Assembly: GCF_004321985.1 (NCBI RefSeq)
Contig: NZ_SCQN01000017.1
Span: 1 to 40,847, forward strand
Origin: Castellaniella sp.
GTDB taxonomy: Bacteria > Pseudomonadota > Gammaproteobacteria > Burkholderiales > Burkholderiaceae_B
DNA: 40,847 bases
Direction of reading: 5' to 3'
The notes under the pieces are model-generated. The model saw nothing but the letters and a program-made list of their open reading frames with translations, was not told the DNA's origin and ran no database searches. A program made the translations under genes and the position numbers. How positions within the stretch are numbered: position 1 is the first letter of the stretch; every line of letters begins with the position of its first letter. Shown here one piece after another: positions 6,852 through 25,814 of the stretch.

Positions 6852-8216
6852 ATGACTACGTTATCGCTGACCTGCCTGGGTGCCGCGGGCACCGTCACCG
6901 GATCCAAGCATCTGTTGACTCACGACAAGACCCGCATCTTGGTCGATTGCGGCTTGTTTCAGGGGTTGGCGAACCTGCGTGAGCTCAACTGGGAGCGCTT
7001 GCCTGTTGAGCCGCGTCACATCGACGCAGTCGTGCTGACCCATGGGCATCTGGATCATTGCGGCTATCTGCCACGGCTGGCGCTCGATGGTTTCTCCGGT
7101 CCAATTTACGCTACCCCGGCCACTTGCGACGTGGCTGCCCTGATCCTGCGCGATAGCGCGTTCCTCCAGGAGAAGGACGCTGATTTCGCCAACCGCAAGG
7201 GTTTCAGCAAGCACCATCCGGCACTGCCGCTCTACGGACCCGCCGATGCCGAACATGCGATCCGGCTGTTCACTGCGACTGCACTCCATCGCGAGCAGAC
7301 GCTGGCGGGGGAGGCGAGGCTCCTGTTGCGCCGTACGGGCCACATCCTTGGCGCTGCCAGCGCCCAGATCGACATCGGCGGGAAACGCATCGTATTCTCG
7401 GGTGATCTGGGCCGCTACGATGATTATGTGATGCACGATCCTGAGCCCGTGCCAGAAGCGGACTATATCGTGATCGAGTCCACCTACGGTGATCGCCTGC
7501 ATGCGTCCACCGATCCAGTGGAGGCATTGGGCGCCGTCATCGACCGCACGGTCAAACGTGGTGGCACGGTGGTGGTGCCCGCTTTCGCTGTCGGTCGTGC
7601 CCAGCTGTTGATCTATAGCATGTGGCTGCTGCGCCGGTCTGGAAAGCTGCGGAACATCCCGGTCTACTTGGACAGCCCGATGGCAACCAGCGCCAGCGAA
7701 CTGATGCACGCTTACCCCGATGACCACAAGCTGCCGACAGGGGAATACGAGGCCGCCTGCGCTGAGGTCATCTGCACGCGCGATGTCCAGGAGTCGAAGG
7801 CGTTGTCTGCCAGCCGCTATCCCAAAGTGATCATTTCCGCCAGCGGCATGGCGACAGGTGGGCGTGTATTGCATCACATCGCGGCATTTGCCCCGGACCA
7901 CCACAACACGCTGTTGTTCAGCGGCTTTCAAGCCGCCGGGACGCGCGGCCGCAAACTGCTGCAGGGGGCGCGGGAGACCAAGATCCACGGGCAGTGGATT
8001 CCCGTGAACGCCGAAGTCACCGAATTGCCGTCGTTGTCCGCGCATGCCGATAGTGCAGATCTCATGCGTTGGCTGTCTGGCTTTCAGAAGCCACCCCGGC
8101 GTGTATTCATTGTTCATGGGGAACCTGACGCTTCCGAGGCGCTGCGCGAACGTATTCGGCGCGACCTCGGTTGGGAGGCTATCGCGCCGCGCCAGGATCA
8201 GGTGTGCTTGTTGTGA
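6852..8216 (+). CDS. MBL-fold / beta-CASP metallo-ribonuclease
   Basis: This 454-residue cytoplasmic protein belongs to the CPSF/RNase J-like metallo-beta-lactamase superfamily. Metal-binding motif 2 is THGHLDHCGYLP (His64, His66, Asp68, His69). Later motifs are SGDLGRYD and the beta-CASP markers ESTYGDR, VVPAFAVGRAQ, PVYLDSPMA and ISASGMATGGRVLHH, and a final SLSAHADS and VFIVHGEP. Such proteins act as zinc-dependent endo- or exonucleases on RNA. In bacteria this short form is often found next to low-oxygen stress genes. It is encoded opposite to the surrounding genes. The ribosome binding site is weak. The physiological RNA target is unknown. Confidence 0.93.
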   Translation: MTTLSLTCLGAAGTVTGSKHLLTHDKTRILVDCGLFQGLANLRELNWERLPVEPRHIDAVVLTHGHLDHCGYLPRLALDGFSGPIYATPATCDVAALILRDSAFLQEKDADFANRKGFSKHHPALPLYGPADAEHAIRLFTATALHREQTLAGEARLLLRRTGHILGAASAQIDIGGKRIVFSGDLGRYDDYVMHDPEPVPEADYIVIESTYGDRLHASTDPVEALGAVIDRTVKRGGTVVVPAFAVGRAQLLIYSMWLLRRSGKLRNIPVYLDSPMATSASELMHAYPDDHKLPTGEYEAACAEVICTRDVQESKALSASRYPKVIISASGMATGGRVLHHIAAFAPDHHNTLLFSGFQAAGTRGRKLLQGARETKIHGQWIPVNAEVTELPSLSAHADSADLMRWLSGFQKPPRRVFIVHGEPDASEALRERIRRDLGWEAIAPRQDQVCLL

Positions 8217-8308
8217 TATGGAACCGAGCGGGAACGGGCGCGTCGGCCCGGTCGCCGAGAATTGAGTAGAGGCTGCCGGTCGCCGGTTCTCCCCACTCTT
8301 TTATCAGC

Positions 8309-8707
8309 CTATTCCATACGCTCGCTTCCATCCCCCGCCGATGGCGCCGTTCGCCTGCTCTCACAGTCTGCGCACCGGACAGAGGCCGGTAGTGCAAGGA
8401 GCCGCGCACGCATGATTGGCCTGCCGCAATCCATACAGATTCCGTACCGGCCCTCGCTCATCCTGGATTCGGCCTCCTCGATTGAACGCAATTGTTCTTC
8501 ATCAATTGCGATCTCCGAGCGTCGTAGTTCCTCGATCCTGGTGATCTCTGATACATCGGAGCCGAACCCTCCTTCGGCCTCCCGGGCTTCGTGTGCCGCT
8601 TGGATGTCGGCCTCGGCAGTCCGGATTTCGTCCATCAGCCGGGCCCTTGTCTGGACAAGCAGGATGTGCAGTTCCTGAATATCGCTGCTGGAAAGATGCT
8701 TCGTCAT
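8309..8707 (-). CDS. DksA/TraR-family zinc-finger protein
   Basis: This 132-residue protein of the DksA/TraR family would bind RNA polymerase through its secondary channel. An N-terminal coiled coil (about 8-85, rich in Glu/Arg/Ala) is followed by a four-cysteine zinc finger with C91-x2-C94 and C112-x2-C115 (CMDCGRPI ... RCADC). The coiled-coil tip lacks the obvious DxxDxA of classical DksA, so it is probably a paralogue rather than DksA itself. It lies about 50 bp downstream of hsp20 on the same strand and is probably cotranscribed with it, placing it under the FNR-like box at 9342-9355. Confidence 0.9.
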   Translation of the reverse strand: MTKHLSSSDIQELHILLVQTRARLMDEIRTAEADIQAAHEAREAEGGFGSDVSEITRIEELRRSEIAIDEEQLRSIEEAESRMSEGRYGICMDCGRPIMRARLLALPASVRCADCESRRTAPSAGDGSERME

Positions 8708-8759
8708 TTCTCAACCATCTTTATGAGGAAGGCAGGGATGGCGCCGTCAGGCCATGCCG

Positions 8760-9212
8760 TCAGCCGATTGGAAGCAGTTTCCTGCCGCTATTTCCCGACC
8801 TCTTGGGTAAGGACAATTCCAGCACACCGTCAGAATATTTGGCGGTGGACTTTGAATCGTCAATCTCATGCGCCAAGGTGAAGCTGCGGGATTGGACGCC
8901 AAAATAACGCTCCCGACGTACGACTGATTCACCGTCTTTCTTCTCGGTCTCGTGCTTCGCCTCGGCGGAGATGGTTACCTGGTTGCCCTCGATGGCGACC
9001 TTGACGTCTTCCTTCTTTACGCCAGGTAGCTCTGCCTTTACGGTATAGCTCTGATCTGTCTCGGAGACATCCATCTTGATAAGTGGTTCGGCTTCAAAAT
9101 TACCGAATACCGGTCGTACGCGGAGATCCCTCAAAAGATCTTCGAAGTTCCGCAATGGCAAGAAATTGGCAATTTCGTTGAAAGGATCAAGCTGCATCAG
9201 ATTGTTGGCCAT
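8760..9212 (-). CDS. Hsp20 / alpha-crystallin family small heat-shock protein
   Basis: This is a 150-residue holdase chaperone of the cytoplasm. The alpha-crystallin domain spans about 43-145: PLIKMDVSETDQSYTVKAEL, then PGVKKEDVKVAIEGN, then a YFGVQSRSFTLAHEID segment and the A-x-Y-x-DGVLELSLPK strand. I chose the ATG at 9212 (MANNLMQLDPF), because the GTG four codons upstream has no better ribosome binding site. A perfect 12-bp inverted repeat (9265-9291) and an FNR/FixK-type site (9342-9355) lie in the leader and promoter region. This suggests oxygen-linked rather than purely heat control. It is followed by the DksA/TraR-like gene. Confidence 0.95.
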   Translation of the reverse strand: MANNLMQLDPFNEIANFLPLRNFEDLLRDLRVRPVFGNFEAEPLIKMDVSETDQSYTVKAELPGVKKEDVKVAIEGNQVTISAEAKHETEKKDGESVVRRERYFGVQSRSFTLAHEIDDSKSTAKYSDGVLELSLPKRSGNSGRKLLPIG

Positions 9213-9264
9213 GATTGATCTCACAAAGAAAAATCTCGAATTTCGCCGTCTTCCATCGAATGAA

Positions 9265-9291
9265 CATAAGCGCCAAATGTTGGCGCTTATG
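9265..9291. promoter_or_regulatory. Perfect 12-bp inverted repeat with 3-nt loop in the hsp20 leader
   Basis: The arms 9265-9276 (CATAAGCGCCAA) and 9280-9291 are exactly complementary with only three bases between them. The repeat lies about 55-80 bases upstream of the hsp20 start and 50 bp downstream of the FNR-like box. It is not followed by a T-run on either strand, so it is not a standard terminator. It could be a hairpin in the hsp20 leader RNA or a repressor operator. Confidence 0.6.
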
Positions 9292-9341
9292 TCTGGAACG
9301 CGGCGCGTACAATCATGTTATTCCTGCGAAAGCAGCGGCAG

Positions 9342-9355
9342 TTGACAAATATCAA
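9342..9355 (-). promoter_or_regulatory. FNR/FixK-type binding site upstream of hsp20
   Basis: The minus strand reads TTGATATTTGTCAA, matching TTGAT-N4-ATCAA in nine of ten conserved positions and TTGA-N6-(T/G)CAA fully. It lies 130 bp upstream of the Hsp20 start codon, leaving room for a transcript leader that contains the inverted repeat. Confidence 0.75.
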
Positions 9356-9451
9356 AAATCTGTCTTTCTTCAAGGCAAGGTCAGGAAATTTCGAGTCGGG
9401 CCCCGACTGAACAATCTGCTGTGTGGCCGGAATCACTGGAGCACAAGGGCA

Positions 9452-10507
9452 TCAGGCATTGCTGATGATGACTTTCAGGGCATTCTCCGAGGCCGCATTG
9501 CCGAACACCTCGTAGGCCCTCAAGATCTGATCGAGTTTGAAGTGGTGGGTAATCAGGGCCTCGGGCATCAACTGCTTCGACTCGACCGTTTTAAGCAGCA
9601 TTGGCGTCGTATTGGTGTTGACCAAACCGGTGGTCAGGGTGATGTTCTGAATCCACAGCTTCTGGAGCTCAAGTTCGACACCTTTTCCGTGAACGCCGAT
9701 ATTGGCTATATGCCCGCCGGGGCGGACTATCCGCTGACATATATTGAAAGTCTGTGGTATTCCAACCGCTTCGATCGCAACATCAACTCCGTCCTTTGTT
9801 TGTGCGAGAATCGCTTTGACGGCGTCGCCGTCGGCGCTATTCACGACATCCGTTGCACCGAACTTTCTGGCGGTATCCAGTCGGAAATGGTCTGTGTCCA
9901 CCATGATGATCTTGCCGGGCGAATAAAGTTTGGCGGTCAATAATGCAGCCATCCCTATTGGGCCGGCCCCGATGATGGCAACCACATCCCCGGGTTTTAC
10001 GGCACCGCTGAGAACGCCTATTTCAAAGCCTGTGGGAAAGATATCGCTGAGCATGACGAGCGCCTCCTCGTCCTTCCCGGCTGCGATGGGGTATAAGCTA
10101 TTGTCGGCGTGTGGGATTCTTACATACTCCGCCTGCGTTCCATCGATCAGGTGTCCAAGTATCCAGCCCCCATCCTCGCAATGGGCGTACATTTGCCTTT
10201 TGCAATACCCGCATCGCCCGCAGGAAGTGATGCATGAAATGAGTACGTGGTCAGATTTTTTGAAGCCGCGGACGGCACTACCGACCTCTTCGATAATTCC
10301 GACCCCCTCGTGACCCAGTATCCTTCCACTGCCAACGGCAGGCACATCACCCTTGAGAATGTGCAGATCGGTGCCGCAAATGGTGGTCTTGGTGATCTTT
10401 ACGAGTGCGTCGGTCGGATGCAGGATTTCTGGAGTGGGAACCGTTTCCCATGCTATTTTTCCTGGGCCGAGGTAGACAAGTGCCTTCATGGTGGGTTGGC
10501 GGGCCAT
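9452..10507 (-). CDS. Zinc-dependent alcohol dehydrogenase (medium-chain family)
   Basis: This 351-residue cytoplasmic NAD(P)-dependent oxidoreductase would interconvert alcohols and aldehydes or ketones. Catalytic zinc ligands are Cys44 (TTICGTDLH) and His66-Glu67 (GHEGVG). Structural zinc ligands are Cys96, Cys99, Cys102 and Cys110. The Rossmann motif is GAGPIG near residue 181, and VDTDHFRLDTARKFGA follows, with an acidic residue that favours NAD. The start ATG follows an AGGGAG ribosome binding site. An FNR-like site lies 75 bp upstream, which fits a fermentative role under low oxygen. The exact substrate (ethanol or a secondary alcohol) cannot be read from the sequence. Confidence 0.94.
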   Translation of the reverse strand: MARQPTMKALVYLGPGKIAWETVPTPEILHPTDALVKITKTTICGTDLHILKGDVPAVGSGRILGHEGVGIIEEVGSAVRGFKKSDHVLISCITSCGRCGYCKRQMYAHCEDGGWILGHLIDGTQAEYVRIPHADNSLYPIAAGKDEEALVMLSDIFPTGFEIGVLSGAVKPGDVVAIIGAGPIGMAALLTAKLYSPGKIIMVDTDHFRLDTARKFGATDVVNSADGDAVKAILAQTKDGVDVAIEAVGIPQTFNICQRIVRPGGHIANIGVHGKGVELELQKLWIQNITLTTGLVNTNTTPMLLKTVESKQLMPEALITHHFKLDQILRAYEVFGNAASENALKVIISNA

Positions 10508-10581
10508 ATCGATCTCCCTGGTGTCGTTCGGTATTGTTCCGTGGCAGTGTCTAAAGATTAGATGAACGATAGGGGGCGATG

Positions 10582-10595
10582 TTGACGATGATCAA
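10582..10595 (-). promoter_or_regulatory. FNR/FixK-type binding site upstream of the alcohol dehydrogenase
   Basis: The minus strand reads TTGATCATCGTCAA, nine of ten conserved bases of TTGAT-N4-ATCAA. The site sits in the 120-bp gap between mgtA and adh, 75 bp upstream of the adh start, a good distance for activation. Confidence 0.78.
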
Positions 10596-10627
10596 ATAGG
10601 TGTGGAATAGGTCGTATGTTGCGCGAC

Positions 10628-13198
10628 TCAGATCCGCTCGGGAGCAAGCCTGGAACGGTAGAAGCAAGCCTTTACGACTTGAGCCATCGCCAGATACAGG
10701 GATACCAGGATGACCAGAGCCAGAAAGTAGCGCCAAGGCAGTGCGGTAAAGCCGAAGAGCTCAGCTAGCGGCGAAAAAGGAATGGCTGCGGCGGCGAGAA
10801 GGATGCTGATCGCCGCGAGCCACAGCGCCGGGTGCGGGCGGCTGAGAAAAGGATTGCCTCTTGTTCGAATGACAAAAATCACGAGAATCTGTGTTGCCAA
10901 AGACTCGATGAACCAGCCAGTCTGGAAGAGACTCTCGTCGGCTTTCAGGACCGTCAATAGCAGATAGAACGTCGCAAAATCGAACAATGAGCTGACTGGG
11001 CCGAGCACCATCATGAAATTGCGCAGCAATTTGATATCCCAATGCTGCGGAGTGGCGATTTCGACTGCATCGACCTCATCGAGAGGAATTACTGTTTCCG
11101 ATAGATCATACAGGATGTTATTAAGCAGTACTTGGGTTGGGAGCATGGGCAGGAAGGGCAGGAACAATGCAGCGCCAGCCATGCTGAACATATTGCCGAA
11201 GTTTGAACTGGTACCCATCATGATGTACTTGCGAATATTCGCAAAGGTTCTGCGTCCTTCGGTGACGCCAAACTCGAGCATGGATAAATCGTGCTTCAGC
11301 ATGATAAGGTCTGCCGAAGCCTTGGCTACATCGACGGCCGTATCCACCGAGATGCTGACATCGGCGCTGTGCAGTGCTGGGGCGTCGTTGATCCCGTCTG
11401 CCATGAATCCGACCACATGGCCTCGTTTCTGTAAAGCGAGGATCAGCCGATTTTTCTGTATGGGGCTGACACGACAAAATAGATTGGCGGATTCTACCTG
11501 GAGAAGCAAGGCGTGATCGTCCAGTTTGGCGATCTGATTTCCCATCAGCATGCCGGTCACCGAGACACCCAGCTCCTTGCAGACGTGTTGTGCGACGAGT
11601 TCGCTGTCTCCAGTCAGGATCTTCACCGCAATCCCCCTGCTCGACAGGTTGCGAATTGCCTCGCCAGCGTCTTTTTTAGGGGGATCCAGGAATGCGGCGT
11701 AGCCGGCGAATATAAGGTCATTTTCGTCGGCGATTGTCGCGTCGACAGTATCGATCGGCACCTTCTTCCACGCAACTCCCAGTACACGATGGCCAGCCTC
11801 GCTGAGCCTGTTCAGCGTTTGCCGTGCGAGGGCAAGAGATTCGTCTGACCAGGGTATTTCCTGTGATCCGGTACCCTCGTAGCAACCGCAGTGTGCCAGC
11901 ATGTCTTCGGGAGCACCTTTCACGATCAGGAAATTATCATCCGAATGCCGTAGCAGTACGGACAATCGCCGTCGCTGGAAATCGAATGGGACCTCGTCGA
12001 GCTTGTTCCATTCGGTGATGTCCATTGATTCATGAGCAAGGATGGCGTCTTCCAGAGGAGTATGTACCCCTGCTTCAAAGCGGCTGTTGAGGTAGGCCAG
12101 CTCCAATACATGGCCATTGTCCTGTCCGGTGATATCAACGTGGCAAGCCAGGCTGATATTCGCCTCGGTAAGCGTGCCTGTCTTGTCGGTGCACAGGGTG
12201 TCCATGGCACCAAGATTCTGCATGGCGGATAACCGCTTTACGATGACCCCGTGTTTGGCAAGCCGCAGTGCGCCGCGTGACAGTGTGACGGTCACCACCA
12301 TGGGCAATAATTCTGGCGTCAGCCCGACGGCCAGAGCCAAGGAAAAGAGAAACGACTCGAGCCACTGACGGTTGGCGAGTCCATTGGCCAGAAGCACGAA
12401 CAGCACCAGCGAGAGAGTGATGCGCAAAATCAGATAACCGAAGCGGCGTATCCCCTCATCAAACGCCGTCGGAGGGTGGTCCTCGGAAATGATGTCACCC
12501 ACCATACCTAGCTGGGTGTGTTCTCCCGTCTTGACTATCAGTACCGACCCGATTCCAGAAAGAACACTTGATCCCATGAAAACGGCATTTGCGGCACAGT
12601 CCAGGGCGTCTTCATTGGGGATGGCATCCGCATGCTTTTCGGCCGGGAACGACTCGCCGGTCAATGCCGCCTGCTGAATAAACAGATCCGTCGCACTGAG
12701 CACCAACCCATCAGCGGGAACCAGGCTACCAGCCGACAGGCCGATCACGTCGCCGGGTACCAGGTTTTCGGCCGGCATTTCTTGGTCAATGCCGTCGCGC
12801 CGAACGGTCACTGTCAAGGCCACAGACTTTCGCAGTTTTTCGGCTGCCATCTCAGCCCTGTGCTCCTGCAGATAGTCGAACGTGACACTCAGTACAACCA
12901 TGGTCGCAATAATGCTGGCGCTCGTGGCGTCGCCCACCACGGCGGATACTCCTCCCGCAACCAGAAGCAGCAAAACCAATGGATTACGCAAACGGCCCAG
13001 GATTTCGAAAAATGGGCTCCTGTGCACGGGTGCGCTTAATCGGTTCGGACCATATATACGCAAGCGTCGTTGCGCTTCTGCGTTGGTCAGGCCGTCTGAA
13101 GAGGAACTCAACTCGTCCTGTGTGGATGCAAGCCTCCACCATGCGCCAGAGAGTGGTCCGGATTCGGAGGCCGCTGCTTTTGCATTTTTATTGAACAT
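10628..13198 (-). CDS. mgtA: Magnesium-translocating P-type ATPase, MgtA/MgtB type
   Basis: This 856-residue inner-membrane P3B ATPase would import Mg2+. It has TGES at about 180-183, phosphorylation site CTDKTGTLTE with Asp338, and the MgtA-specific hinge GFMADGINDAPALHSADVSIS. The C-terminal membrane part contains the characteristic GTSSNFGNMFSM and LLNNILYDLSET segments. The start is ten bases downstream of the stop of the acyl-CoA synthetase/GNAT gene, so the two form an operon, probably driven from the site at 15965-15978. No Mg2+-sensing leader is visible directly upstream, which fits operon control rather than classical magnesium starvation control. It is the second P-type ATPase of this stress block. 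Confidence 0.94.
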   Translation of the reverse strand: MFNKNAKAAASESGPLSGAWWRLASTQDELSSSSDGLTNAEAQRRLRIYGPNRLSAPVHRSPFFEILGRLRNPLVLLLLVAGGVSAVVGDATSASIIATMVVLSVTFDYLQEHRAEMAAEKLRKSVALTVTVRRDGIDQEMPAENLVPGDVIGLSAGSLVPADGLVLSATDLFIQQAALTGESFPAEKHADAIPNEDALDCAANAVFMGSSVLSGIGSVLIVKTGEHTQLGMVGDIISEDHPPTAFDEGIRRFGYLILRITLSLVLFVLLANGLANRQWLESFLFSLALAVGLTPELLPMVVTVTLSRGALRLAKHGVIVKRLSAMQNLGAMDTLCTDKTGTLTEANISLACHVDITGQDNGHVLELAYLNSRFEAGVHTPLEDAILAHESMDITEWNKLDEVPFDFQRRRLSVLLRHSDDNFLIVKGAPEDMLAHCGCYEGTGSQEIPWSDESLALARQTLNRLSEAGHRVLGVAWKKVPIDTVDATIADENDLIFAGYAAFLDPPKKDAGEAIRNLSSRGIAVKILTGDSELVAQHVCKELGVSVTGMLMGNQIAKLDDHALLLQVESANLFCRVSPIQKNRLILALQKRGHVVGFMADGINDAPALHSADVSISVDTAVDVAKASADLIMLKHDLSMLEFGVTEGRRTFANIRKYIMMGTSSNFGNMFSMAGAALFLPFLPMLPTQVLLNNILYDLSETVIPLDEVDAVEIATPQHWDIKLLRNFMMVLGPVSSLFDFATFYLLLTVLKADESLFQTGWFIESLATQILVIFVIRTRGNPFLSRPHPALWLAAISILLAAAAIPFSPLAELFGFTALPWRYFLALVILVSLYLAMAQVVKACFYRSRLAPERI

Positions 13199-13208
13199 CA
13201 GTATGCCG

Positions 13209-15896
13209 TCAGGTACAACGGTCGGTATTCAGTTTCAGATGAATGTCGATCAGACCATCGCGAGGCGCGGACAGCGCAAAACCGAATTTCCTGGCCAGGC
13301 CAAGCATGCGAAAATTGTCAACCAGAACAGTACCGACCATGCAGGCCGTGTCGCGCTCACGACAATAGCGAATGGCCTTGGATAGCAACTTTGAACCCAG
13401 GCCGCTGGATTTCAGCGCTGAACTCACTGCGAGTCCCACTTCCGCCTGCTGATTATCAGGGTCAAAAATCAGTCGCACTTCGCCCACGATCACTTCGCTC
13501 TCGGATCCGCCCTGACTGACTGCCACTAGTGTCATTTCCCTGCTGTAGTCAATTTGGGTGACTCTTGCCAGTTCGGATTGAGCCAGCTGGCGTACTGCGC
13601 AAAAGAAGCGATTATGGGCGTCCTCCGCATTCAGAGTCTGCAGAAAAAACTGGTACGATCGTGCGTCAGATGGGAGAATCGGGCGCAATAAGAGCGGACC
13701 TGTCCCGTGCTCCAGCATTTCCTCGAGCTCTTTAGGGTAAGGCCGAATGGCCAGGCGATCGGTCCCTTGCAATAGGGATGGTGCAACCCTTATTCGCGCG
13801 TCAAGCGCCATCACCCCGTTCTCATCCAGCAATAGCGGGTTGATGTCCAGCTCGACCATCTCCGGAATATCCACGATCAATTGAGAAAGTGCGACCATCG
13901 TCCGATATAGATTCGGCAAATCGGCTGCAGGGTGATTCCGGTAACCCTGCAGCAACTTGAATACGCGTGTACGGGCTGCCAGATCTTCGGCGAGAGCCAT
14001 GTTCAAAGGAGGCAGACTTACCGAGCGGTCGTTGATCACTTGTGTGGCAACGCCTCCTTGGCCGAATAAAACGATCGGGCCGAATGTCTGGTCTTCAGCC
14101 ATGCCCAGAATCAGTTCGTGCGCGTCGGGCCGATTGATCATGGCCTGGACGGTGAAGCCGGTAAGCCGAGCGTCGGGGCGACTCTGGCTCACCTGAGACA
14201 CCATGTTCCTTGCGGCTATGCGAACGTGCTCTACGGATTCCAGGTTGAGAGCGACTCCGCCGACATCGGACTTATGAGTGATATCTGGAGAAAGGATCTT
14301 CAGGGCGACGGGAAATCCGATTTGCTGTGCGAGGACCGCTGCGACCTCGATTGTGGATGCGACTCGAGTTTCAACCACCGGAATGCCGTAGGCTGCCAGT
14401 ACCGATTTGGCTTCCGCCTCGTCCAGCAAGCTGCGCTGATCCGCAAGGGCTTTTTCTACGATCCTTCTTACCTGCTCGGTATCGACCGTCAGACCTACGG
14501 GCCGTGAAGGAGGTGTCTCAAGCAATAACTCCTGATTCCTTCGGTAGGCCAGCAGGTACAAGAAGGCCTGCACGGCTTCCTCGGGGGTCTGATAGGTGGG
14601 TATGCCGGCTCGGCTGAAGACCTGCCTGGCAGCCGAGACCCCCAGTCCACCGAGCCAGCATCCAAAGGTATTGCGCGGTGAGGCGGCAATTAGCGGTGCG
14701 CATTCTCGGGCGATTTCTTCGCTTTGCACGATTGCCGTGGGAGCATGCATGAAAAGCAGGGAATCGGATCCTCCATCACCCAATAGGACAGACAGTGTCT
14801 CGTGGTAACGCTCGACGGGCGCGTCGCCTATGATGTCGATCGGGTTTGCCTTGGACCAGGTAGACGGTAGTATGGCGTCAAGTTTTCGTCTTGTGTCGTC
14901 TGTCAAGGCGACCAGTTCCTCTCCGGCGAGGCTCAAAGCGTCGGCCGCCATGACTCCGGGGCCTCCACCATTGGTCATAATGATCAGTTTATCCCCGCGC
15001 AGAGGTTTCGCGCGTGATAAGGTTTCTATTGCACTGAATAAATCCTGCGTTGTATTGACCCGCAGCATGCCTGCCCGCCTGATTGCCGCGTCGAATACGA
15101 TATCCGATCCGGCCATGGCCCCTGTATGCGATGTCGCCGCTGCGGCTCCTGCTGCCGATCGCCCCGCCTTGACGACTATGACGGGCTTATTGCGGGCGGC
15201 CGCACGGGCGGCCGACATGAATTTGCGCGCATGCTTGATGGATTCAATGTACAGAAGGATGCTTCTGGTGTCCGGGTCGCTGGCGAGGTAATCCAGTATG
15301 TCCCCGAAATCGATGTCGGCGCTATTGCCGATCGAAATGAATTTTGAGAAGCCGATGGTATTTTCTGCCGCCCAATCCAACACCGCTGTCGTCAGGGCCC
15401 CAGACTGCGAGACGAAGGCGATCTTTCCGGGCGATGCGGTGGACTCGGCGAAACTGGCATTAAGTCCAAGACCGGGAATGATCAGTCCTATGCAATTGGG
15501 CCCCAGGATCCTCAGTAGATGAGGCTGCGCTGCTTCCAGCATGGCTCGCTGGGCATCCACCCCATTTCCGGTGCAATCCGCCTCCAGCCCCGCCGTCAGC
15601 ACGATTGCAGCTTTGGTGCCCAGGTGTCCTAGCTGTTTGATCAAATCGGGTACAGTGGCAGGCGGAGTGCATACGATCGCCAGATCGGGAACGGTGGGCA
15701 GTGCTGAGAGGTCGTGAAAGGCGGGAAGGCCGGCAATGCGCTCGTGCTTTGGGTTTACCGGCAGGATAGGTCCTCCGAAGCCGCCTCGTATCAGATTGAG
15801 CATCACTATCGATCCCACGCTATGGGGGCGATCCGTGGCGCCTATGACGGCGATGGAACGGGGGCGGAACAGATAATCTAGATTGCGTATGGTCAT
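13209..15896 (-). CDS. ADP-forming acyl-CoA synthetase fused to GNAT acetyltransferase (Pat/YfiQ-like)
   Basis: This 895-residue cytoplasmic protein has four parts in order: a CoA-binding Rossmann domain (LFRPRSIAVIGATD), succinyl-CoA-ligase-like domains (CIGLIIPGLGLNASFA, SQSGALTTAVLDWA), an ATP-grasp domain (VALKILSPDITHKSDVGGV, LILGMAEDQTFGP), and a C-terminal GNAT domain. The GNAT domain has the acetyl-CoA loop region SSGLGSKLLSKAI. This is the architecture of the lysine acetyltransferase Pat/YfiQ. The segment SHTGAMAGSD retains a histidine at the place where ADP-forming synthetases carry their phosphohistidine, so ligase activity is possible. I use the ATG beginning MTIRNL; a TTG lies six codons upstream. 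The gene lies between the FNR-like regulator gene and mgtA, with an FNR-type site just upstream. Confidence 0.9.
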   Translation of the reverse strand: MTIRNLDYLFRPRSIAVIGATDRPHSVGSIVMLNLIRGGFGGPILPVNPKHERIAGLPAFHDLSALPTVPDLAIVCTPPATVPDLIKQLGHLGTKAAIVLTAGLEADCTGNGVDAQRAMLEAAQPHLLRILGPNCIGLIIPGLGLNASFAESTASPGKIAFVSQSGALTTAVLDWAAENTIGFSKFISIGNSADIDFGDILDYLASDPDTRSILLYIESIKHARKFMSAARAAARNKPVIVVKAGRSAAGAAAATSHTGAMAGSDIVFDAAIRRAGMLRVNTTQDLFSAIETLSRAKPLRGDKLIIMTNGGGPGVMAADALSLAGEELVALTDDTRRKLDAILPSTWSKANPIDIIGDAPVERYHETLSVLLGDGGSDSLLFMHAPTAIVQSEEIARECAPLIAASPRNTFGCWLGGLGVSAARQVFSRAGIPTYQTPEEAVQAFLYLLAYRRNQELLLETPPSRPVGLTVDTEQVRRIVEKALADQRSLLDEAEAKSVLAAYGIPVVETRVASTIEVAAVLAQQIGFPVALKILSPDITHKSDVGGVALNLESVEHVRIAARNMVSQVSQSRPDARLTGFTVQAMINRPDAHELILGMAEDQTFGPIVLFGQGGVATQVINDRSVSLPPLNMALAEDLAARTRVFKLLQGYRNHPAADLPNLYRTMVALSQLIVDIPEMVELDINPLLLDENGVMALDARIRVAPSLLQGTDRLAIRPYPKELEEMLEHGTGPLLLRPILPSDARSYQFFLQTLNAEDAHNRFFCAVRQLAQSELARVTQIDYSREMTLVAVSQGGSESEVIVGEVRLIFDPDNQQAEVGLAVSSALKSSGLGSKLLSKAIRYCRERDTACMVGTVLVDNFRMLGLARKFGFALSAPRDGLIDIHLKLNTDRCT

Positions 15897-15964
15897 TATG
15901 AATATCTGTTGCAATCTGGGTTATTCGTAGTCTTTCCAGCGTACTCCGGAGGCCAGCGGATGTA

Positions 15965-15978
15965 TTGCGCAATATCAA
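15965..15978 (-). promoter_or_regulatory. FixK-type binding site upstream of the acs/GNAT-mgtA operon
   Basis: The minus strand reads TTGATATTGCGCAA, an exact match to the FixK-style consensus TTGA-N6-(T/G)CAA with a perfect TTGAT half-site. It lies between the stop of the regulator gene (16001) and the start of the synthetase gene, about 70 bp upstream of the latter. Confidence 0.62.
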
Positions 15979-16000
15979 GTTTCCAGAACAGAAGCTGGAA

Positions 16001-16762
16001 TCACTCAGAAGTGCCTCGATGTAACAAGGGCTGGCCGTCGCCGCACAGGTCAACCAGACGATCGGCACGCAGAATGCGCACTTCCTTGCCTCGCACGGCA
16101 AGAATGTCTTTTGCCTGCATACGGCTGAACTCGCGGCTAACCGTCTCAAGTGTCAGGCCAAGATAGCTGGCCAGATCACGACGAGACATCGGCAGCGTCA
16201 GATTGAGCGGATCTCGGGACAACCGATCACAGCGGCTGGCAAAACTGCGAAGGAACATGGCAAGTCGCACTTGTGCCAGTGTCTTGCCCATGATGATCAG
16301 ATGCTCCAGATTGGTGTCAGCCCACCTGCTGACCATTTGTTGCAGCTGCTGATGCAGGATAGGGAATTTTTCCAAAATTGGCTGCAGGCGTGCATGCGGA
16401 ATTGCCCAGATGTTGGAAGACTCCAGGGCCTCCGCCGTACCGAGGTAGAAATCCTTACCCAAACCGCCGATGCCCACGATCTCGCCAGGCAGATGGAAAC
16501 CAAGCACCTGCTCTCCGCCAGCGGGGTCCGCTACAGACGTCTTCAGTGATCCGGATCGCACGATATATAGAGCGCGGGAGGGATCGCCTTGATGGAATAC
16601 TGCCTCGCGGTGCTCGTACAGGCGCTTGTCGCCTATGAGTGGATCCAGCTGGTCCAAGTCTGTGGCGCCAATGCTGGTGGGCAAGCGGACTTGGCTGAGC
16701 GCAAATGACGTGTAACTATGCCGCAGCGAATCGACATCCGCAATAATGATTCCGAAGTCCAC
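16001..16762 (-). CDS. Crp/Fnr-family regulator lacking the Fe-S cysteines
   Basis: This 253-residue protein resembles E. coli FNR along its length. It has a cyclic-nucleotide-like effector domain (GEQVLGFHLPGEIVGIGGLG), a dimer helix, and an HTH at about 195-225 reading MSRRDLASYLGLTLETVSREF. ETVSR is the FNR-type recognition helix, where Glu and Arg read TTGAT half-sites. The N-terminal cysteine cluster is missing: SQVRLP stands where FNR has SQLCIP, and NIWAIP where it has the internal cysteine. Only two cysteines remain, in other places. The GTG at 16762 is chosen because GGAGG lies six bases upstream and the length then matches FNR; an upstream ATG would add 25 unrelated residues. It should sense something other than oxygen by an Fe-S cluster, such as NO via heme as in DNR, or be controlled by its own transcription, as FixK is. 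Confidence 0.92.
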   Translation of the reverse strand: MDFGIIIADVDSLRHSYTSFALSQVRLPTSIGATDLDQLDPLIGDKRLYEHREAVFHQGDPSRALYIVRSGSLKTSVADPAGGEQVLGFHLPGEIVGIGGLGKDFYLGTAEALESSNIWAIPHARLQPILEKFPILHQQLQQMVSRWADTNLEHLIIMGKTLAQVRLAMFLRSFASRCDRLSRDPLNLTLPMSRRDLASYLGLTLETVSREFSRMQAKDILAVRGKEVRILRADRLVDLCGDGQPLLHRGTSE

Positions 16763-17198
16763 GGGTACCCTCCAGCGCCGCAGCGAATGCCCAAGCAATA
16801 CTAGAGATCGTACTTGGCTTCCATCTAGCCACGGCAAAACTTAGTGACGCCATCGGCCTGCCTGAACGTCACTCGAATTGTAGTCACTTTCCGAGGCTGA
16901 TCAAGGTCGGTTAGAGCCAGTTGGCATCCTTCCGGAGCTACCGGTATCGCAGTCCACCATGAGCCCGATTTTCCTCCGGGTGCGGCCAGGGCAGCGGCAC
17001 CTGTCGGTCTTGCCGCAGCGCATGCAGCCGCTATCTAGCGTCCTCGAATCTGATGCATCTCAATTTTCACCCGTTGATCCAGCACTATGCTTCATCAATG
17101 GAACGCCTGACTAGGCTGAAGACTACACGACTTCGCGCTGCGCAGGATGATAGGCATCCTGCCCGTAGGGTCTGTGACTTACGAGGCTGAGAACACGC
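16763..17198. other. Intergenic region between the FNR-like regulator and the kinase fusion
   Basis: This 436-bp gap serves divergent genes. It contains a perfect 8-bp inverted repeat with a 5-bp loop (GCAGGATG at 17142-17149, CATCCTGC at 17155-17162), about 40 bp upstream of the plus-strand gene. No FNR-type site, RNA gene or convincing ORF was seen. Confidence 0.5.
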
Positions 17199-18737
17199 AT
17201 GGTGACCCAGGATCAGCACGCCGTCCTCGCATTTTTGACGAACCCGCTCAGCCATGGCGATGCGGCGCTGAATATTCACACGACAGAAACGCACCTGTCT
17301 GTAATTATTTTCGTTGGTTCGCGGGTTTTCAAACTGAAGCGTGCCGTGCGTCTGCCGTATGTGGATTTCTCGACACCGCAGCGCCGGTTGGAGGCATGTC
17401 ACCGAGAATTGGCCTTGAATCGGCGCACTGCACCGCAGCTTTATGTCGCCGTTCGGCAAATCACCCGCGAGGCGGATGGTCGCCTGGTATTTGACGGCCC
17501 AGGCGAGCTTTTCGATGCAGTAGTTGAGATGGTTCGCTTCGACGAGGATGCTTTATTCGACAGGCTGGCGGTGCGGGGTCAGCTGACCCCGATCGTACTG
17601 ACCGAGCTCGCCGGCATCATCGCCCGGTTTCATGCGGAGGCTGCCATTGATCGTCACGGTGGCGGTGCGGATCGGATAGCCGCGGTGCTGACTACGAACG
17701 AAGAATCGCTGACCGTCAGCGGCATCTTCCTCCCTGCAACAATCGCGACACTCACCACGAATCTATGGCGAGCTTTCGACGAGCATGTTGCACTCTTGAA
17801 TGCGCGCGCACGAGAGGGCAAAGTACGGCGCTGTCATGGAGATCTCCATCTGCGCAACATCTGTCTGGTGCAAGGCGTTCCAACCTTGTTCGACTGCGTC
17901 GAATTTGATGAGGCGCTGGGCACAGTTGACGTGCTGTACGATCTGGCTTTCCTGCTCATGGATCTGTGGCATCTCGGCCTGGCGTCTGATGCCAATCTCG
18001 TTTTTAACCGTTACCTGGATGAGCGCAACGAGGTGGACGGCTTGTCGCTGCTCCCATTTTTCATGGCAGTGCGGGCGTCGATCCGTGCCCACGTCACTGC
18101 CCAGCTAGCGTCGCAGGCGACTGGACAACAGCGAGATGACCTTGCGGCCGAGGCAGAGTCCTACGCGGCCCTGGCGCTTCGCTTGCTGGCTCCGGTGTCG
18201 GTACGGTTGGTGGCTATCGGTGGCCTGAGCGGCACAGGCAAGTCAACCGTGGCAGCAGCCATTGCGCACACAATCGGACCTGCGCCCGGTGCGCGCGTCG
18301 TGGCCAGTGATCGTATCCGCAAGCGCTGCTATGGTGTGTCGGCACAGACCCGTCTTCCAGCGCAAGCCTATCACCTTGCGGTGTCGCAACGAGTCTACGC
18401 GGCCCTGGCTCGAAACGTACGAGTGGTTCTGTCGGCTGGTCATGGCGCGGTAGCGGATGCGGTGTATGACCGTGCCGACGAGCGAGATCGGATCGAACGC
18501 ATCGCGCTGGAGACCGGTGTTCCCTTTACCGGCATCTGGCTGTACGCCCAGCCGGCACAGCTGTTTTCGCGGGTTGATCAGCGCTCTGGCGACCCGTCCG
18601 ACGCGACAGCCGAGGTCGTCCGCGAACAGCTCGCGCGCGACTGCGGGCGGCTTGCCTGGCTGCAGATTGACGCGAGTAGCACCGTTGCGGCCGCTGCGGC
18701 ACACATTGCCCAGGTGTTGGCGGTTCCTGATACCTGA
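17199..18737 (+). CDS. Aminoglycoside-phosphotransferase-like domain fused to P-loop kinase
   Basis: This 512-residue cytoplasmic protein has two catalytic modules. The N-terminal part (about 1-320) has an APH/choline-kinase-like fold: VFKLKRAVRLPYVDF around the ATP lysine, Brenner motif RCHGDLHLRNIC, then LFDCVEFDEALGTVDVLYDLAFL supplying the metal-binding Asp. The C-terminal part (about 335-505) is a P-loop kinase with Walker A GGLSGTGKST and a VVASDRIRKRCYG segment typical of gluconate-kinase-like and AAA_33 proteins. The family is widespread and its substrate is unknown. An antibiotic-resistance role is unlikely. It is convergent with rluE (22-bp gap) and follows the low-oxygen block, where such fusions are often found. 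Confidence 0.87.
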   Translation: MVTQDQHAVLAFLTNPLSHGDAALNIHTTETHLSVIIFVGSRVFKLKRAVRLPYVDFSTPQRRLEACHRELALNRRTAPQLYVAVRQITREADGRLVFDGPGELFDAVVEMVRFDEDALFDRLAVRGQLTPIVLTELAGIIARFHAEAAIDRHGGGADRIAAVLTTNEESLTVSGIFLPATIATLTTNLWRAFDEHVALLNARAREGKVRRCHGDLHLRNICLVQGVPTLFDCVEFDEALGTVDVLYDLAFLLMDLWHLGLASDANLVFNRYLDERNEVDGLSLLPFFMAVRASIRAHVTAQLASQATGQQRDDLAAEAESYAALALRLLAPVSVRLVAIGGLSGTGKSTVAAAIAHTIGPAPGARVVASDRIRKRCYGVSAQTRLPAQAYHLAVSQRVYAALARNVRVVLSAGHGAVADAVYDRADERDRIERIALETGVPFTGIWLYAQPAQLFSRVDQRSGDPSDATAEVVREQLARDCGRLAWLQIDASSTVAAAAAHIAQVLAVPDT

Positions 18738-21960: not shown

Positions 21961-23358
21961 ATGGACTTTAGAGACACCCTCCCGCACGTCGTCATTCTGG
22001 GCGGCGGCTTCGGCGGCCTCTGGGCGGCCCGCGCACTGGCCCGTGCGTCGGTGCGCATTACGCTCGTGGACCGCTCGAACCATCACGTCTTCCAGCCGCT
22101 GCTCTATCAGGTGGCCGGCGCGGGGCTGTCGGGCACCGACATCGCCGCGCCGCTGCGCCACATCCTGCGGCGGCAGCGTAATGTCACGGTCTGGATGGAT
22201 GAGGTGAGCGGCATCGATGTGGCACATCGGCGTGTGTTCGCAGGGCAACGCGAGCTGACCTACGATTGGCTGGTGGTGGCGACCGGGTCGTTGCCCACGT
22301 GGTTTGGCCACGCCCAGTGGGCGCGACATGCTCCTGGCCTGAAGACGCTGGACGATGCACTGGTGATTCGGCGTCGCCTCCTGTCCGCTTTTGAGGCGGC
22401 TGAGCGCGAGCCCGATCCCGTGCAACGTGCACGCTGGCTTTCCTTCGTGATCGTGGGTGGCGGCCCCACGGGCGTGGAGCTCGCCGGTACACTCCTGGAA
22501 ATCGCGCGTCACACGCTGCCGCGTGAGTTCCGCAAGGCGCATCCCGGAGAAGCGGCCGTGCATCTCATCGAGGCCGGCAAACGGCTGCTGCCCGCCATGC
22601 CCGAGCGCCTGTCCGCGCTGGCGCGCGCAAAGCTCGAACAGATGGGCGCCTGTGTCCACCTGGACACGGCCGTGAGCGACGTGAGCGCGGCCGGCGTGCA
22701 GACGGCGCACGGCGCCATTTCGGCACGCACCGTGCTTTGGGCAGCCGGCACGGTCGCCTCGCCGCTTGGCCGGGACCTTGCTGTGGGCCGGGATTTTTCT
22801 ACCGTCCTCGATCGTGCGGGGAGGGTCCGTGTGCAACCGGACTTGTCACTGCCCGGCCACCCCGAGGTCTTCGTCGTGGGCGACCTGGCGCTTTGCGAGT
22901 CCGACGGGCGGCGCGTGCCGGGCGTGGCACCCGCGGCCAAGCAAATGGGGCGCCATGCCGGGCGGGCCATCCGTGCACGGCTGGCTGGCAGGGTACCGCC
23001 TGCGTTCCGCTACCATGATGACGGCACACTCGCGAGCATCAGCCGGGCTTCGGCCGTGGTCCGGCTGCGCGGCCTGCAGCTTCACGGACTACCGGGCTGG
23101 CTCTTCTGGTTGTTTGCCCATGTCTTCTTCCTGATCGGCTTTCGCAATCGCCTGGCGGTCCTGTGGAACTGGGCCTGGTCTTATTTCACCTGGCAGCGCA
23201 ACGCGCGGATCATCGTGGGACCTGATCCGCCGGCGGAGAGTGCACCACCGCCGGCGTCAGGAAGTTTACTTGCCCTGGATGAAATCCATGATCGGCGGGA
23301 AAGTGAACGCGAATCCGATGATGAGCAGCACGAACGAGATAATGCTGACGTTTCGTAG
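21961..23358 (+). CDS. Type II NADH dehydrogenase-like flavoprotein
   Basis: This 465-residue FAD enzyme of the NDH-2 family passes electrons from NAD(P)H to quinone at the membrane without pumping protons. The FAD site is VVILGGGFGGLWAARAL, and HHVFQPLLYQVA is the NDH-2 hallmark. The NAD site is VIVGGGPTGVELAG. EVFVVGDLA and VAPAAKQMGRHAGRAI follow. A hydrophobic stretch (LPGWLFWLFAHVFFLIGF) near the C-terminus serves as membrane anchor. The last 31 codons lie antisense to the end of the convergent membrane-protein gene and encode a hydrophilic tail unlike the family, so the natural end may have been lost or extended. It is the third gene of the MmgE/PrpD unit. Confidence 0.92.
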   Translation: MDFRDTLPHVVILGGGFGGLWAARALARASVRITLVDRSNHHVFQPLLYQVAGAGLSGTDIAAPLRHILRRQRNVTVWMDEVSGIDVAHRRVFAGQRELTYDWLVVATGSLPTWFGHAQWARHAPGLKTLDDALVIRRRLLSAFEAAEREPDPVQRARWLSFVIVGGGPTGVELAGTLLEIARHTLPREFRKAHPGEAAVHLIEAGKRLLPAMPERLSALARAKLEQMGACVHLDTAVSDVSAAGVQTAHGAISARTVLWAAGTVASPLGRDLAVGRDFSTVLDRAGRVRVQPDLSLPGHPEVFVVGDLALCESDGRRVPGVAPAAKQMGRHAGRAIRARLAGRVPPAFRYHDDGTLASISRASAVVRLRGLQLHGLPGWLFWLFAHVFFLIGFRNRLAVLWNWAWSYFTWQRNARIIVGPDPPAESAPPPASGSLLALDEIHDRRESERESDDEQHERDNADVS

Positions 23359-23619
23359 GTTCACATCGGCCTCTGCCCAGCGTCTGGACAAGATCGCCCA
23401 CGCCACCAGCCAGACGACGATGGCGCCGGTTGAAACGCCCGATAGGGTGCCAGTCGGGTTGTAGATGTTGAAGAAATTGCCGACACTCTTGAACGCGTCT
23501 CCCAGCAGGGAGAAGATACCCATCGCTGCGCAGCCGATACCCGCCGCCAACAAGGCGGCAGCACCGGGGCCGTTACGGAGTTGGCCGATTTCGTTGTTTG
23601 TGGTGTTCGTCATCATCAT
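23266..23619 (-). CDS. Small three-helix membrane protein of unknown function
   Basis: I do not recognise the family. The 117-residue product has three likely membrane segments: AALLAAGIGCAAMGIFSLLG (about 21-40), GAIVVWLVAWAILS (about 65-80) and VSIISFVLLIIGFAFTFPP (about 91-110). A soluble loop FKSVGNFFNIYNPTG lies between the first two. GGAGA precedes a run of three ATGs, so the exact start is uncertain by two codons. It overlaps the end of the upstream membrane-protein gene, so the two are translated together and probably form one complex. Its 3' end overlaps the convergent NDH-2 gene by 93 bp. Confidence 0.75.
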   Translation of the reverse strand: MMMTNTTNNEIGQLRNGPGAAALLAAGIGCAAMGIFSLLGDAFKSVGNFFNIYNPTGTLSGVSTGAIVVWLVAWAILSRRWAEADVNLRNVSIISFVLLIIGFAFTFPPIMDFIQGK

Positions 23620-24182
23620 TCTCCGTTCATCAAATGGATGTTTTGGCCGCCGCGCACGGGGGCAAACTTATTGAGGAAGGCACCGAATGCTCCGGCGGCC
23701 CCTGTGGCGATGAATGCCGCGATGACGAAGACCAGAACGGCCTTACGCAAGCCGGCGAACTTGGCCAGGCTGGTGCCGTATTTGCCATAGATGTAAGCGA
23801 CCATCGTCATCGCAATAGGAGCGATCCAGGCAACGTGCTCCTTCCACTCCATTCCAAAATCGTGCCAGCCCGAGGTGCTGGGACTCGACAGCAATAGTTG
23901 TCGAGGGAAACCCGAAAGGTCGGTCGTGCCGGTGGGGGCGATGGCGCGGTACCAGGGGTAGACGATATAGGCTCCAGAAAATACCGTCAGCCATGCCAGC
24001 ACAACCATGCCGACAAGGTACACCCGCATCAACGTCTGCGAGTTGCGGTCGACAGAACCAACGGGGCCGCCGGCCGTCGAGCGATAGAACTCCGCGATGG
24101 CGCCACTGAAGGCCAGCATGAACAGAGCGCCAAAACCCATGCCGTGCAAGACGGTGAGGAGGTCTCGAAATGACATTTCCAT
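23616..24182 (-). CDS. Four-helix membrane protein with intramembrane histidines, unknown function
   Basis: I do not recognise the family. The 188-residue product has four predicted helices: TM1 about 8-30 (LTVLHGMGFGALFMLAFSGA), TM2 about 52-75 (RVYLVGMVVLAWLTVFSGAY), TM3 about 116-133 (VAWIAPIAMTMVAYIYG) and TM4 about 147-170. His13 lies in TM1. The segment SGWHDFGMEWKEH at the start of TM3 carries two more histidines, so a b-type heme or metal site is conceivable; that is inference only. The start follows AAGGAGAAG. A FixK-type site lies 226 bp upstream. It is cotranscribed with the smaller membrane protein and may be a low-oxygen respiratory or transport module. Confidence 0.78.
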   Translation of the reverse strand: MEMSFRDLLTVLHGMGFGALFMLAFSGAIAEFYRSTAGGPVGSVDRNSQTLMRVYLVGMVVLAWLTVFSGAYIVYPWYRAIAPTGTTDLSGFPRQLLLSSPSTSGWHDFGMEWKEHVAWIAPIAMTMVAYIYGKYGTSLAKFAGLRKAVLVFVIAAFIATGAAGAFGAFLNKFAPVRGGQNIHLMNGE

Positions 24183-24713: not shown

Positions 24714-25115
24714 CTACAGCCAGCGCTTGACTGCGACCCCGCTGATGCGCGACGCCGGCACGAAGGGCTGCGTCCAGACGCGCGAGTCGGTTGATTCCCG
24801 CAGGTTGTCGCCAACGACGAAGTAGTGGCCGTCCGGGACGCGCCATCTGCACACATGCGCCCCGGCAACCCGCGGACAGTCGTCCCACGGACAATCGTTG
24901 ACATATAGGCGCCCGGCTTCGAGTTCGACGACATCGCCTGGCCCGGCGGCGATCCGCTTGACGTACAGAGCGCCAGGCACGGTCGCGGTGAGCACGACGA
25001 CGTCGCCGACAGCGACGCGCCGACCCGCTGGGCGCGTCAGCAGTATCTGACCGGCGTGCAGCGTCGGCTGCATCGAGCGGCCGTGGATACGGACCAGGGG
25101 GATCCAGCGCGCCAT
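24714..25115 (-). CDS. S26-family signal peptidase without membrane anchor (SodX-like)
   Basis: This 133-residue serine protease of the signal peptidase I clan has box B HGRSMQPTLHAGQ with nucleophile Ser14, VGDVVVL, general base Lys53 in LYVKRIAAGPGD, and box E VVGDNLRESTDSRVW. Only 13 residues precede the catalytic serine and there is no membrane helix, unlike LepB. This resembles the soluble peptidase SodX, which trims the nickel superoxide dismutase precursor. The ATG at 25115 overlaps the upstream stop (TGACATG), so translation is coupled. A longer in-frame reading upstream is only the out-of-frame shadow of the partner gene's His-rich tail. The neighbour is its likely substrate. Confidence 0.88.
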   Translation of the reverse strand: MARWIPLVRIHGRSMQPTLHAGQILLTRPAGRRVAVGDVVVLTATVPGALYVKRIAAGPGDVVELEAGRLYVNDCPWDDCPRVAGAHVCRWRVPDGHYFVVGDNLRESTDSRVWTQPFVPASRISGVAVKRWL

Positions 25116-25116
25116 G

Positions 25117-25740
25117 TCAACGGTGGGCGTCGTGCGAGTGATGGGCGTGGGCTTCGGCGTTAGCCTGATGGGAGTGCTGGCCGTGTGCAGCGTGGCCGTG
25201 CGCGTGGTCCTCACCCTCGGCATACTTGAAGAAGCTCACGTAAGCGGCCACATAGTCCCGCGCGGCGGCGACGTCATTGATGTCGAAGCCCTTCTTGCCC
25301 AAGGCCACTGCGAAGCGACGGTGCAATTCGTCGCGGCGCTCGGCTGGCGCCAGCGCGAGCACATCGCGGTCGTCGCCGACCTCGAGCGCCCGGTCGGCCG
25401 CCACGACGATGGGATCGATACTGGTGCCGGCTGGCTGGATACCGGTGAACCCGACGCCCTCGCCCATGCGGTGCAGCCGGACCAGGGTCTCGAGAAACAG
25501 CCGGTCGGCGACCTCGGCAGCATCCGCGCCGAGCTTGCGCACCACCAGCGACTTGGCGAAGACCTCGGCCAACTCGATCTCGCCATCGGGCTGGATCCAC
25601 TTGAGGGCGTAGTTGATGTTGCCGGTCTCGAGTGCGCGGCGCCCGTCAACGACAGCAGGGCCGTCGGCGGTGTCGCAATGGGCCTCGGCGGTGGGAACGA
25701 CCGCCTCGACGAGCGATCGCAACAAGGTAGTCATGGACAT
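25117..25740 (-). CDS. HCD-motif protein (DUF6448-like) with short leader and His-rich tail
   Basis: This 207-residue protein has a leader of about 20 residues (MSMTTLLRSL, then VEAVVPTAEA), followed by HCDTADGPAVVDG. The predicted mature protein would start with His-Cys-Asp, and that cysteine is the only one in the protein. The core (about 45-170, with RALETGNINYALKW and GFTGIQPAGTSIDP) is helical and resembles what I know as DUF6448. The last 30 residues hold 11 histidines, a probable metal-binding tail. Nickel superoxide dismutase also starts HCD after a trimmed leader and is paired with a peptidase, but its second nickel cysteine (HCDLPCG) is missing here. The ATG at 25740 has AAAGGG upstream. 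A FixK-like site lies 61 bp upstream of the start. Confidence 0.82.
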   Translation of the reverse strand: MSMTTLLRSLVEAVVPTAEAHCDTADGPAVVDGRRALETGNINYALKWIQPDGEIELAEVFAKSLVVRKLGADAAEVADRLFLETLVRLHRMGEGVGFTGIQPAGTSIDPIVVAADRALEVGDDRDVLALAPAERRDELHRRFAVALGKKGFDINDVAAARDYVAAYVSFFKYAEGEDHAHGHAAHGQHSHQANAEAHAHHSHDAHR

Positions 25741-25800
25741 CGTCTGCACCCTTTCGAGAAGATGATGCGATCAGGCTAGCACGGCGCAGCCACGCCACCT

Positions 25801-25814
25801 TTGACGTTGCTCAA
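25801..25814 (-). promoter_or_regulatory. FixK-type binding site upstream of the HCD-protein/peptidase pair
   Basis: The minus strand reads TTGAGCAACGTCAA, an exact fit to TTGA-N6-(T/G)CAA and one mismatch in each half from TTGAT-N4-ATCAA. It is 61 bp upstream of the start codon, close to ideal for class II activation with a short leader. Confidence 0.6.

Follow-up and report, generated by a model that had tools for sequence, protein, structure and literature searches.

The locus raises the question of whether a small protein of the DUF6448 family is matured by the peptidase encoded directly behind it, and of what such a cut would expose. The window, i.e. the whole stretch of DNA that was analysed, comprises 40,847 nucleotides of a Castellaniella sp. 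contig (NZ_SCQN01000017.1) and carries both genes on its minus strand, with one base between the DUF6448 stop codon and the peptidase ATG. From sequence comparison we favour, with moderate confidence, a substrate and its dedicated maturation protease that would expose His-Cys-Asp (HCD) in the cytoplasm under low-oxygen or nitric oxide control. The peptidase would cut the DUF6448 leader on the cytoplasmic side to leave a protein beginning His1-Cys2-Asp3. The freed N-terminus, which by the predicted model would pack beside the HRxxEG segment, would form a site with His70, Glu74 and Glu155, most likely for a transition metal; the His-rich tail might supply metal to this site, and a regulator of the FNR/DNR type would turn expression on when oxygen is low or nitric oxide is present.

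The gene pair and its relatives

The features of the locus are as follows.

25117–25740, minus strand: DUF6448 gene (PF20046), 207-residue precursor; ATG at 25740, stop ending at 25117
25749–25754, minus strand: Shine–Dalgarno-like AAAGGG ahead of the ATG at 25740, read from the sequence
25681–25740, minus strand: codons of the 20-residue amphipathic non-Sec leader, with A-E-A at its end
25672–25680, minus strand: codons of His1-Cys2-Asp3, the predicted mature N-terminus
25459–25473, minus strand: codons of the HRxxEG motif (His70-Arg71-x-x-Glu74), which does not vary over the 82 aligned rows
25120–25239, minus strand: His-rich tail (11 of the final 40 residues are His), modelled with low confidence
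24714–25115, minus strand: anchorless S26 peptidase gene, 133 residues; ATG at 25115, stop ending at 24714
25074–25076, minus strand: codon of catalytic Ser14 of the peptidase, invariant in 36/36 and 25/25 linked peptidases
24957–24959, minus strand: codon of catalytic Lys53 of the peptidase, invariant in 36/36 and 25/25 linked peptidases
25801–25814, no strand assigned: FNR/FixK/DNR-type box TTGA-N6-TCAA, some 60 bases ahead of the DUF6448 start codon

Other candidate starts for the DUF6448 gene are GTG 25749 and ATG 25734. The initial annotation had described the pair by its leader, HCD, single cysteine, 11-His tail, Ser14/Lys53 and missing anchor, and this description was accurate. An Rfam search of the window returned no match. 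Two adjoining small membrane proteins, with no Pfam match above cut-off, are encoded at 23266–24182.

The window protein is a full member of DUF6448 (173.9 bits against a cut-off of 27, E = 2.6e-51, profile positions 1–147 of 147). Its leader is followed by HCDTADGP, in which the cysteine is the only one of the whole protein, and the A-x-A cleavage-like site sits directly ahead of HCD. A literature search found DUF6448, PF20046 and TIGR02754 in no paper, and no published function for DUF6448.

The peptidase was matched by PF10502 (93.4 bits against a cut-off of 22.9, E = 1.9e-26) and by TIGR02227 (sigpep_I; 87.2 bits against 47). Its model has the complete fold of a type I signal peptidase (pLDDT 93), and Foldseek gave 24 PDB matches at E ≤ 0.001, including SpsB, SipA and LepB; among the matches listed, all are type I signal peptidases or their homologue SipA. 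Shared with LepB/SipS are the fold, the Ser/Lys dyad and the A-x-A pocket implied by the sites. The window peptidase has no membrane helix, so it lacks the anchor of an ordinary secretory signal peptidase. Unlike those enzymes, the linked peptidases are either anchorless or carry an anchor with the opposite charge pattern, and each has one co-encoded candidate substrate. The genome of the window encodes one further PF10502 protein, a full, normal LepB.

Relatives were collected in one scan of 84,980 species genomes, which gave 552, and the best 80 of these were kept as named loci; the ranking follows their similarity to an alignment headed by the window protein, and shares among them are not prevalence. 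L001, L007 and L050 are duplicates, and L008 and L009 lie below the cut-off. The nearest 80 span Actinomycetota, Burkholderiales and other Pseudomonadota, Bacillota, Bacteroidota, Chloroflexota and more. By genome DUF6448 is rare, being found above cut-off in 6/369, 3/394, 5/399, 2/199, 2/198, 7/178 and 2/180, in samples that include the genomes on which they were centred.

At 38 of the 80 named loci (37/79 without the duplicate L050) the next gene downstream, on the same strand, encodes an S26 protein; it usually overlaps the DUF6448 gene or starts within a few tens of bases of it. The two partners diverge in step (Mantel r = 0.73, with 0/5000 permutations as high, n = 36). The pair of DUF6448 and S26 is real and widespread. 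A search for DUF6448-like proteins beside anchorless S26 peptidases had been proposed in the initial annotation, and 23 of the 38 linked pairs examined have an anchorless peptidase. A dedicated S26 peptidase, co-encoded and co-inherited with its candidate substrate, is supported by the linkage, by the Mantel correlation and by the complete anchor concordance of the 38 pairs given below. Cleavage of the leader by the linked peptidase is likely on these sequence grounds.

Leader types, anchors and the side of the membrane

Leader starts were picked by a script using a Shine–Dalgarno score. It retained a frame only if both HCD and the H-x-x-x-E-G motif were present, and the presence of HCD in 93/93 rows is thus circular; the same motif filter removed L059 (Sec-type leader, ordinary anchor). 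Among the 93 distinct rows there are 44 Sec-type leaders (positive n-region, hydrophobic core, A-x-A), two of them with a linked S26 gene; 18 inverted membrane-helix leaders, with no positive charge before the helix and Arg/Lys after it (13 linked); 23 short amphipathic leaders, the window's included (23/23 linked); five long leaders, in which a helix is followed by a cut-like site; and three leaderless proteins, to which five further leaderless members (MPP-HCD) were added later. L081_77 and L085_81 were moved by eye to the long-leader type for these type counts, whereas the tree, moment and charge tests used them under their earlier type. The long-leader proteins (L003, L004, L078, L081 and L085) combine a membrane helix with another hydrophobic stretch immediately ahead of HCD, and in L078 and L081 the long-leader copy stands in tandem with a Sec-type copy. 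In L112 and L113, Sec-type members lie on enterobacterial and Marinobacter plasmids, beside a two-component/AraC set and phosphonate/phosphite genes.

In a tree of the mature domain, for which the leaders were not used and from which L065 is absent (broken frame), the inverted and amphipathic types group together as a single clade of 41 rows (SH-aLRT 97). Amphipathic leaders arose at least two times (three changes, two of them forced by supported branches), and no Sec-type row falls within the clade that holds the window protein. The statement that the leader is not a good Sec signal is upheld for the window protein and its clade. The initial annotation had named Sec leaders without a linked peptidase as evidence against its proposal: these are found family-wide, in 42 of the 44 Sec-type rows (n = 93), and none occurs in the window's clade.

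The same 42 rows speak for an improbable alternative, in which the linked S26 gene is a spare signal peptidase that lies by chance beside an exported DUF6448 protein and LepB cuts the latter; pairs in Neobacillus and Tetragenococcus, with a Sec-type leader beside a gene of ordinary LepB-like topology, also agree with it. Against it, the leaders of the window's clade are non-Sec, their peptidases are anchorless or reversed in charge, and the anchors of substrate and peptidase are concordant throughout the 38 pairs. A membrane-helix leader goes with an anchored peptidase in 15/15 and an amphipathic leader with an anchorless one in 23/23 (Fisher 6.5e-11, a value naive to shared descent). Only two to three independent anchor switches underlie this pattern, so that the paired sign test (p = 0.5) cannot reach significance. 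Leader class IIb was defined as linked with a hydropathy below 1.9 and the anchor class by how long the N-terminus is; two pairs, L020 and L034, were classed by hand, and without both the concordance is 14/14 and 22/22. L034 has a frame break in the peptidase. In L020, a pair of the inverted type, both the leader and the peptidase contain in-frame stops, from decay or sequencing errors. A pair found afterwards, L151, also fits.

The peptidase tree places two soluble groups of 13 and nine rows (each SH-aLRT 99) among the anchored peptidases; the 'soluble' label of the L065 row in it is wrong (broken frame). When 35 linked peptidases, without L064 and L114 of normal topology, were tested for forming a single clade, the AU p was 0.25. 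Five inverted-type leaders have no adjacent S26 gene (L026, L052, L056, L087, which ends at its contig, and L111), and the best S26 matches in the L026 and L052 genomes resemble ordinary LepB. The L056 genome holds an unlinked S26 gene (L090), at a contig edge, which is nearest to the linked group on the peptidase tree.

The side of the membrane taken by a membrane helix can be read from its flanking charge (the positive-inside rule). Across the leader, the charge on the C-side minus that on the N-side ranges from 0 to +3 for 17 leaders of the inverted type and from −6 to 0 for 43 of the Sec type (p = 1.8e-9), with L022, L024 and L079 omitted because their script start lies too far downstream. 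For the peptidase anchor this difference is 0 to +5 in 13 linked peptidases versus −7 to +1 in 17 unlinked LepB-like ones (p = 2.4e-5). Thirteen of the 15 anchored pairs have a peptidase anchor with no positive charge on its N-side, opposite to ordinary LepB. By these charge patterns and the positive-inside rule both partners in the window's clade should face the cytoplasm. Outside that clade, both partners have the ordinary orientation in the pairs of Neobacillus (L064 and likewise L059) and of Tetragenococcus (L114). The predicted orientation of the partners agrees in every pair examined, as a protease and its substrate require. A cytoplasmic location of the window pair is likely, as judged from these predictions.

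For 14 of the 23 amphipathic leaders the hydrophobic moment exceeds that of 90% of shuffles, versus 0/18 and 1/46 in the comparison groups, and these leaders look as if they were derived from a membrane helix. The high moment of the type IIb leaders, together with the membrane-helix leaders of the sister groups, would also suit a membrane-binding amphipathic helix from which the peptidase releases the protein at the inner face in a regulated manner, the N-terminus itself being unimportant. We consider this unlikely: A-x-A stands exactly ahead of HCD, and HCD is retained in leaderless members too. Release alone is insufficient because it would not keep HCD at the cut. The leaderless members form an actinobacterial MPP-HCD clade of eight loci (L099–L101, L147, L149 and L152–L154), in which HCD stays two residues from the N-terminus once Met is removed. 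On account of this clade the idea that leader removal frees an N-terminal His was dropped as a family-wide rule. Actinotalea ferrariae has a leaderless MPP-HCD copy and, elsewhere in its genome, a copy with leader and peptidase.

For the window pair, maturation by the linked peptidase remains our preferred reading, and a wider one can be put forward tentatively. A branch of signal peptidase I may have flipped its orientation, along with the leader of its single substrate, so that both moved from the periplasmic side of the membrane to the cytoplasmic one, the membrane helix then being lost in both partners at least two times; an otherwise periplasmic family of HCD metalloproteins would in this way be matured into a cytoplasmic low-oxygen/NO enzyme with a new metal centre. 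If true, this would be a second, separately evolved enzyme of the signal-peptidase type that exposes His-Cys-Asp inside the cell, and SodN/SodX would become a single instance of a general strategy. The periplasmic, inverted anchored, soluble and leaderless forms would make up a natural series of a protein and its protease changing compartment together, and DUF6448, a family found in many phyla, would gain its first testable function.

The mature protein and nickel superoxide dismutase

The residues H1, C2, D3, G7, P8, W28, H70, R71, E74, G75, G80, Y147 and E155 are invariant in the 82-row alignment; in the larger row set three leaderless rows carry His at 155. Position 6 varies among relatives (D, G, E or N) and is Asp in the window protein. 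HCD is present in 27 of 29 distinct places above the family-profile cut-off, the other two (L155 and L157) being fragments; 23 of the 27 were read, and L146, L148, L150 and L156 were equated by position with L013, L034, L025 and L055. The conservation of HCD, on which the initial annotation depended, was thereby confirmed. The last 40 residues contain on average 6.9–7.7 His in the S26-linked groups versus 3.8 in the Sec types.

The predicted model of the mature protein is very confident to residue 150 (block means 96–98) and all helical. Its only strand or bridge residues are 4 and 82, which would tuck the N-terminus beside the segment after HRxxEG. At E ≤ 0.001 Foldseek found 0/69 matches for this model among solved structures and 0/64 in a viral structure library. 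A PDB sequence search with the window protein returned just a designed repeat protein (E = 0.0012).

From residue conservation alone a metal site is the natural reading of the mature protein, and we give it about even chances; nickel in particular is an improbable choice of metal. A thiol/redox or sensing site without a metal centre, formed by a single cysteine near the N-terminus beside His and Glu, is less probable but deserves weight. There is one invariant cysteine across the rows, in most of them the sole one, and the neighbouring genes include stress genes rather than metal-insertion genes, which would suit such a site. The invariant His1, Asp3, His70 and Glu74, on the other hand, look like metal ligands, and the His-rich tail, richer in the S26-linked groups, looks like a metal supply.

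The closest known parallel is SodN/SodX. SodX matures nickel superoxide dismutase (NiSOD; PMC8346466, PMC3919588). Both systems have a small protein with a short non-Sec leader and A-x-A ahead of His-Cys-Asp, and a cognate anchorless peptidase of the S26 clan encoded alongside. Unlike SodN, DUF6448 has no Cys6 and a different predicted fold, its linked peptidase is larger with an ordinary signal-peptidase fold, and its relatives include membrane-anchored, apparently inverted pairs and FNR-type boxes. The kinship with SodX suggested by the initial annotation found no support: the window peptidase scores 28.9 bits against the SodX model TIGR02754, below the equivalog cut-off of 63.25, and two SodX proteins from genomes holding both systems take another place in the tree than the linked peptidases, a separation that is moderately supported (88 and 82). 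The pair is best described as one that would work like SodN/SodX while standing outside that family.

That DUF6448 is itself a distant NiSOD minus one hook cysteine is very improbable. NiSODs of the same genomes do share HCD after A-x-A and have similar short leaders, but no NiSOD appeared in the PDB sequence search or among the best 50 of the 69 Foldseek matches, Cys6 is absent, and neither Pfam nor NCBIfam gives the window protein a Sod_Ni match at E ≤ 1. The earlier verdict that this is not a nickel superoxide dismutase agrees with the missing profile match and with Asp in place of the second nickel cysteine at position 6. Homology to NiSOD was rejected as a candidate, there being neither a PDB sequence match nor a fold match. 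A role of the S26 protein as a peptidase for NiSOD was likewise rejected: no Sod_Ni (PF09055) was found in the genome of the window, where the controls of the search came out empty, and the identical search gave a match in four of the 37 genomes with linked pairs, so that it is able to detect NiSOD.

Control and gene neighbourhood

The FixK-like site noted earlier upstream of the pair stood up to comparison. Of the 87 upstream regions taken from relatives, 23 contain TTGA-N6-TCAA versus 1.7 expected (shuffles: mean 0.5, maximum 3), and other spacings from 2 to 11 gave 0 or 1 match each in the same 87 regions. All but one of the 23 box-bearing regions (22/23) belong to the window's clade, with the box at a similar distance. 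By type, boxes were found for 16/23 amphipathic, 6/18 inverted, 4/44 Sec, 0/5 long and 0/3 leaderless members. The window contains three such boxes versus 0.39 expected by chance. Low-oxygen/NO control of the window pair by a regulator of the FNR/DNR type is, on this pattern of sites, quite probable. The other two boxes of the window (9342–9355 and 10582–10595) lie upstream of an Hsp20 gene (8763–9224) and a zinc alcohol dehydrogenase gene (9455–10507), respectively.

Neighbour clusters were named by Pfam/NCBIfam from one representative each. A Crp/Fnr gene is near in 20 of 85 loci, at most four genes away in 19 of them and eight genes away in the window. Genes for hemerythrin-domain proteins, including RIC/ScdA, are near in 11 of the 85 loci, and a norB-like gene in six, all of these beside Sec-type or long-leader members and none beside a member of the window's type.

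The block at 3913–18734 of the window resembles a low-oxygen stress island, with two P-type cation ATPases, a beta-CASP nuclease, the Hsp20 and alcohol dehydrogenase genes, a CoA ligase fused to GNAT and a Crp/Fnr regulator at 16004–16837. The DUF6448 homologue on Sinorhizobium pSymA (L110) has a similar ligase, a Crp/Fnr gene and a universal stress gene nearby.
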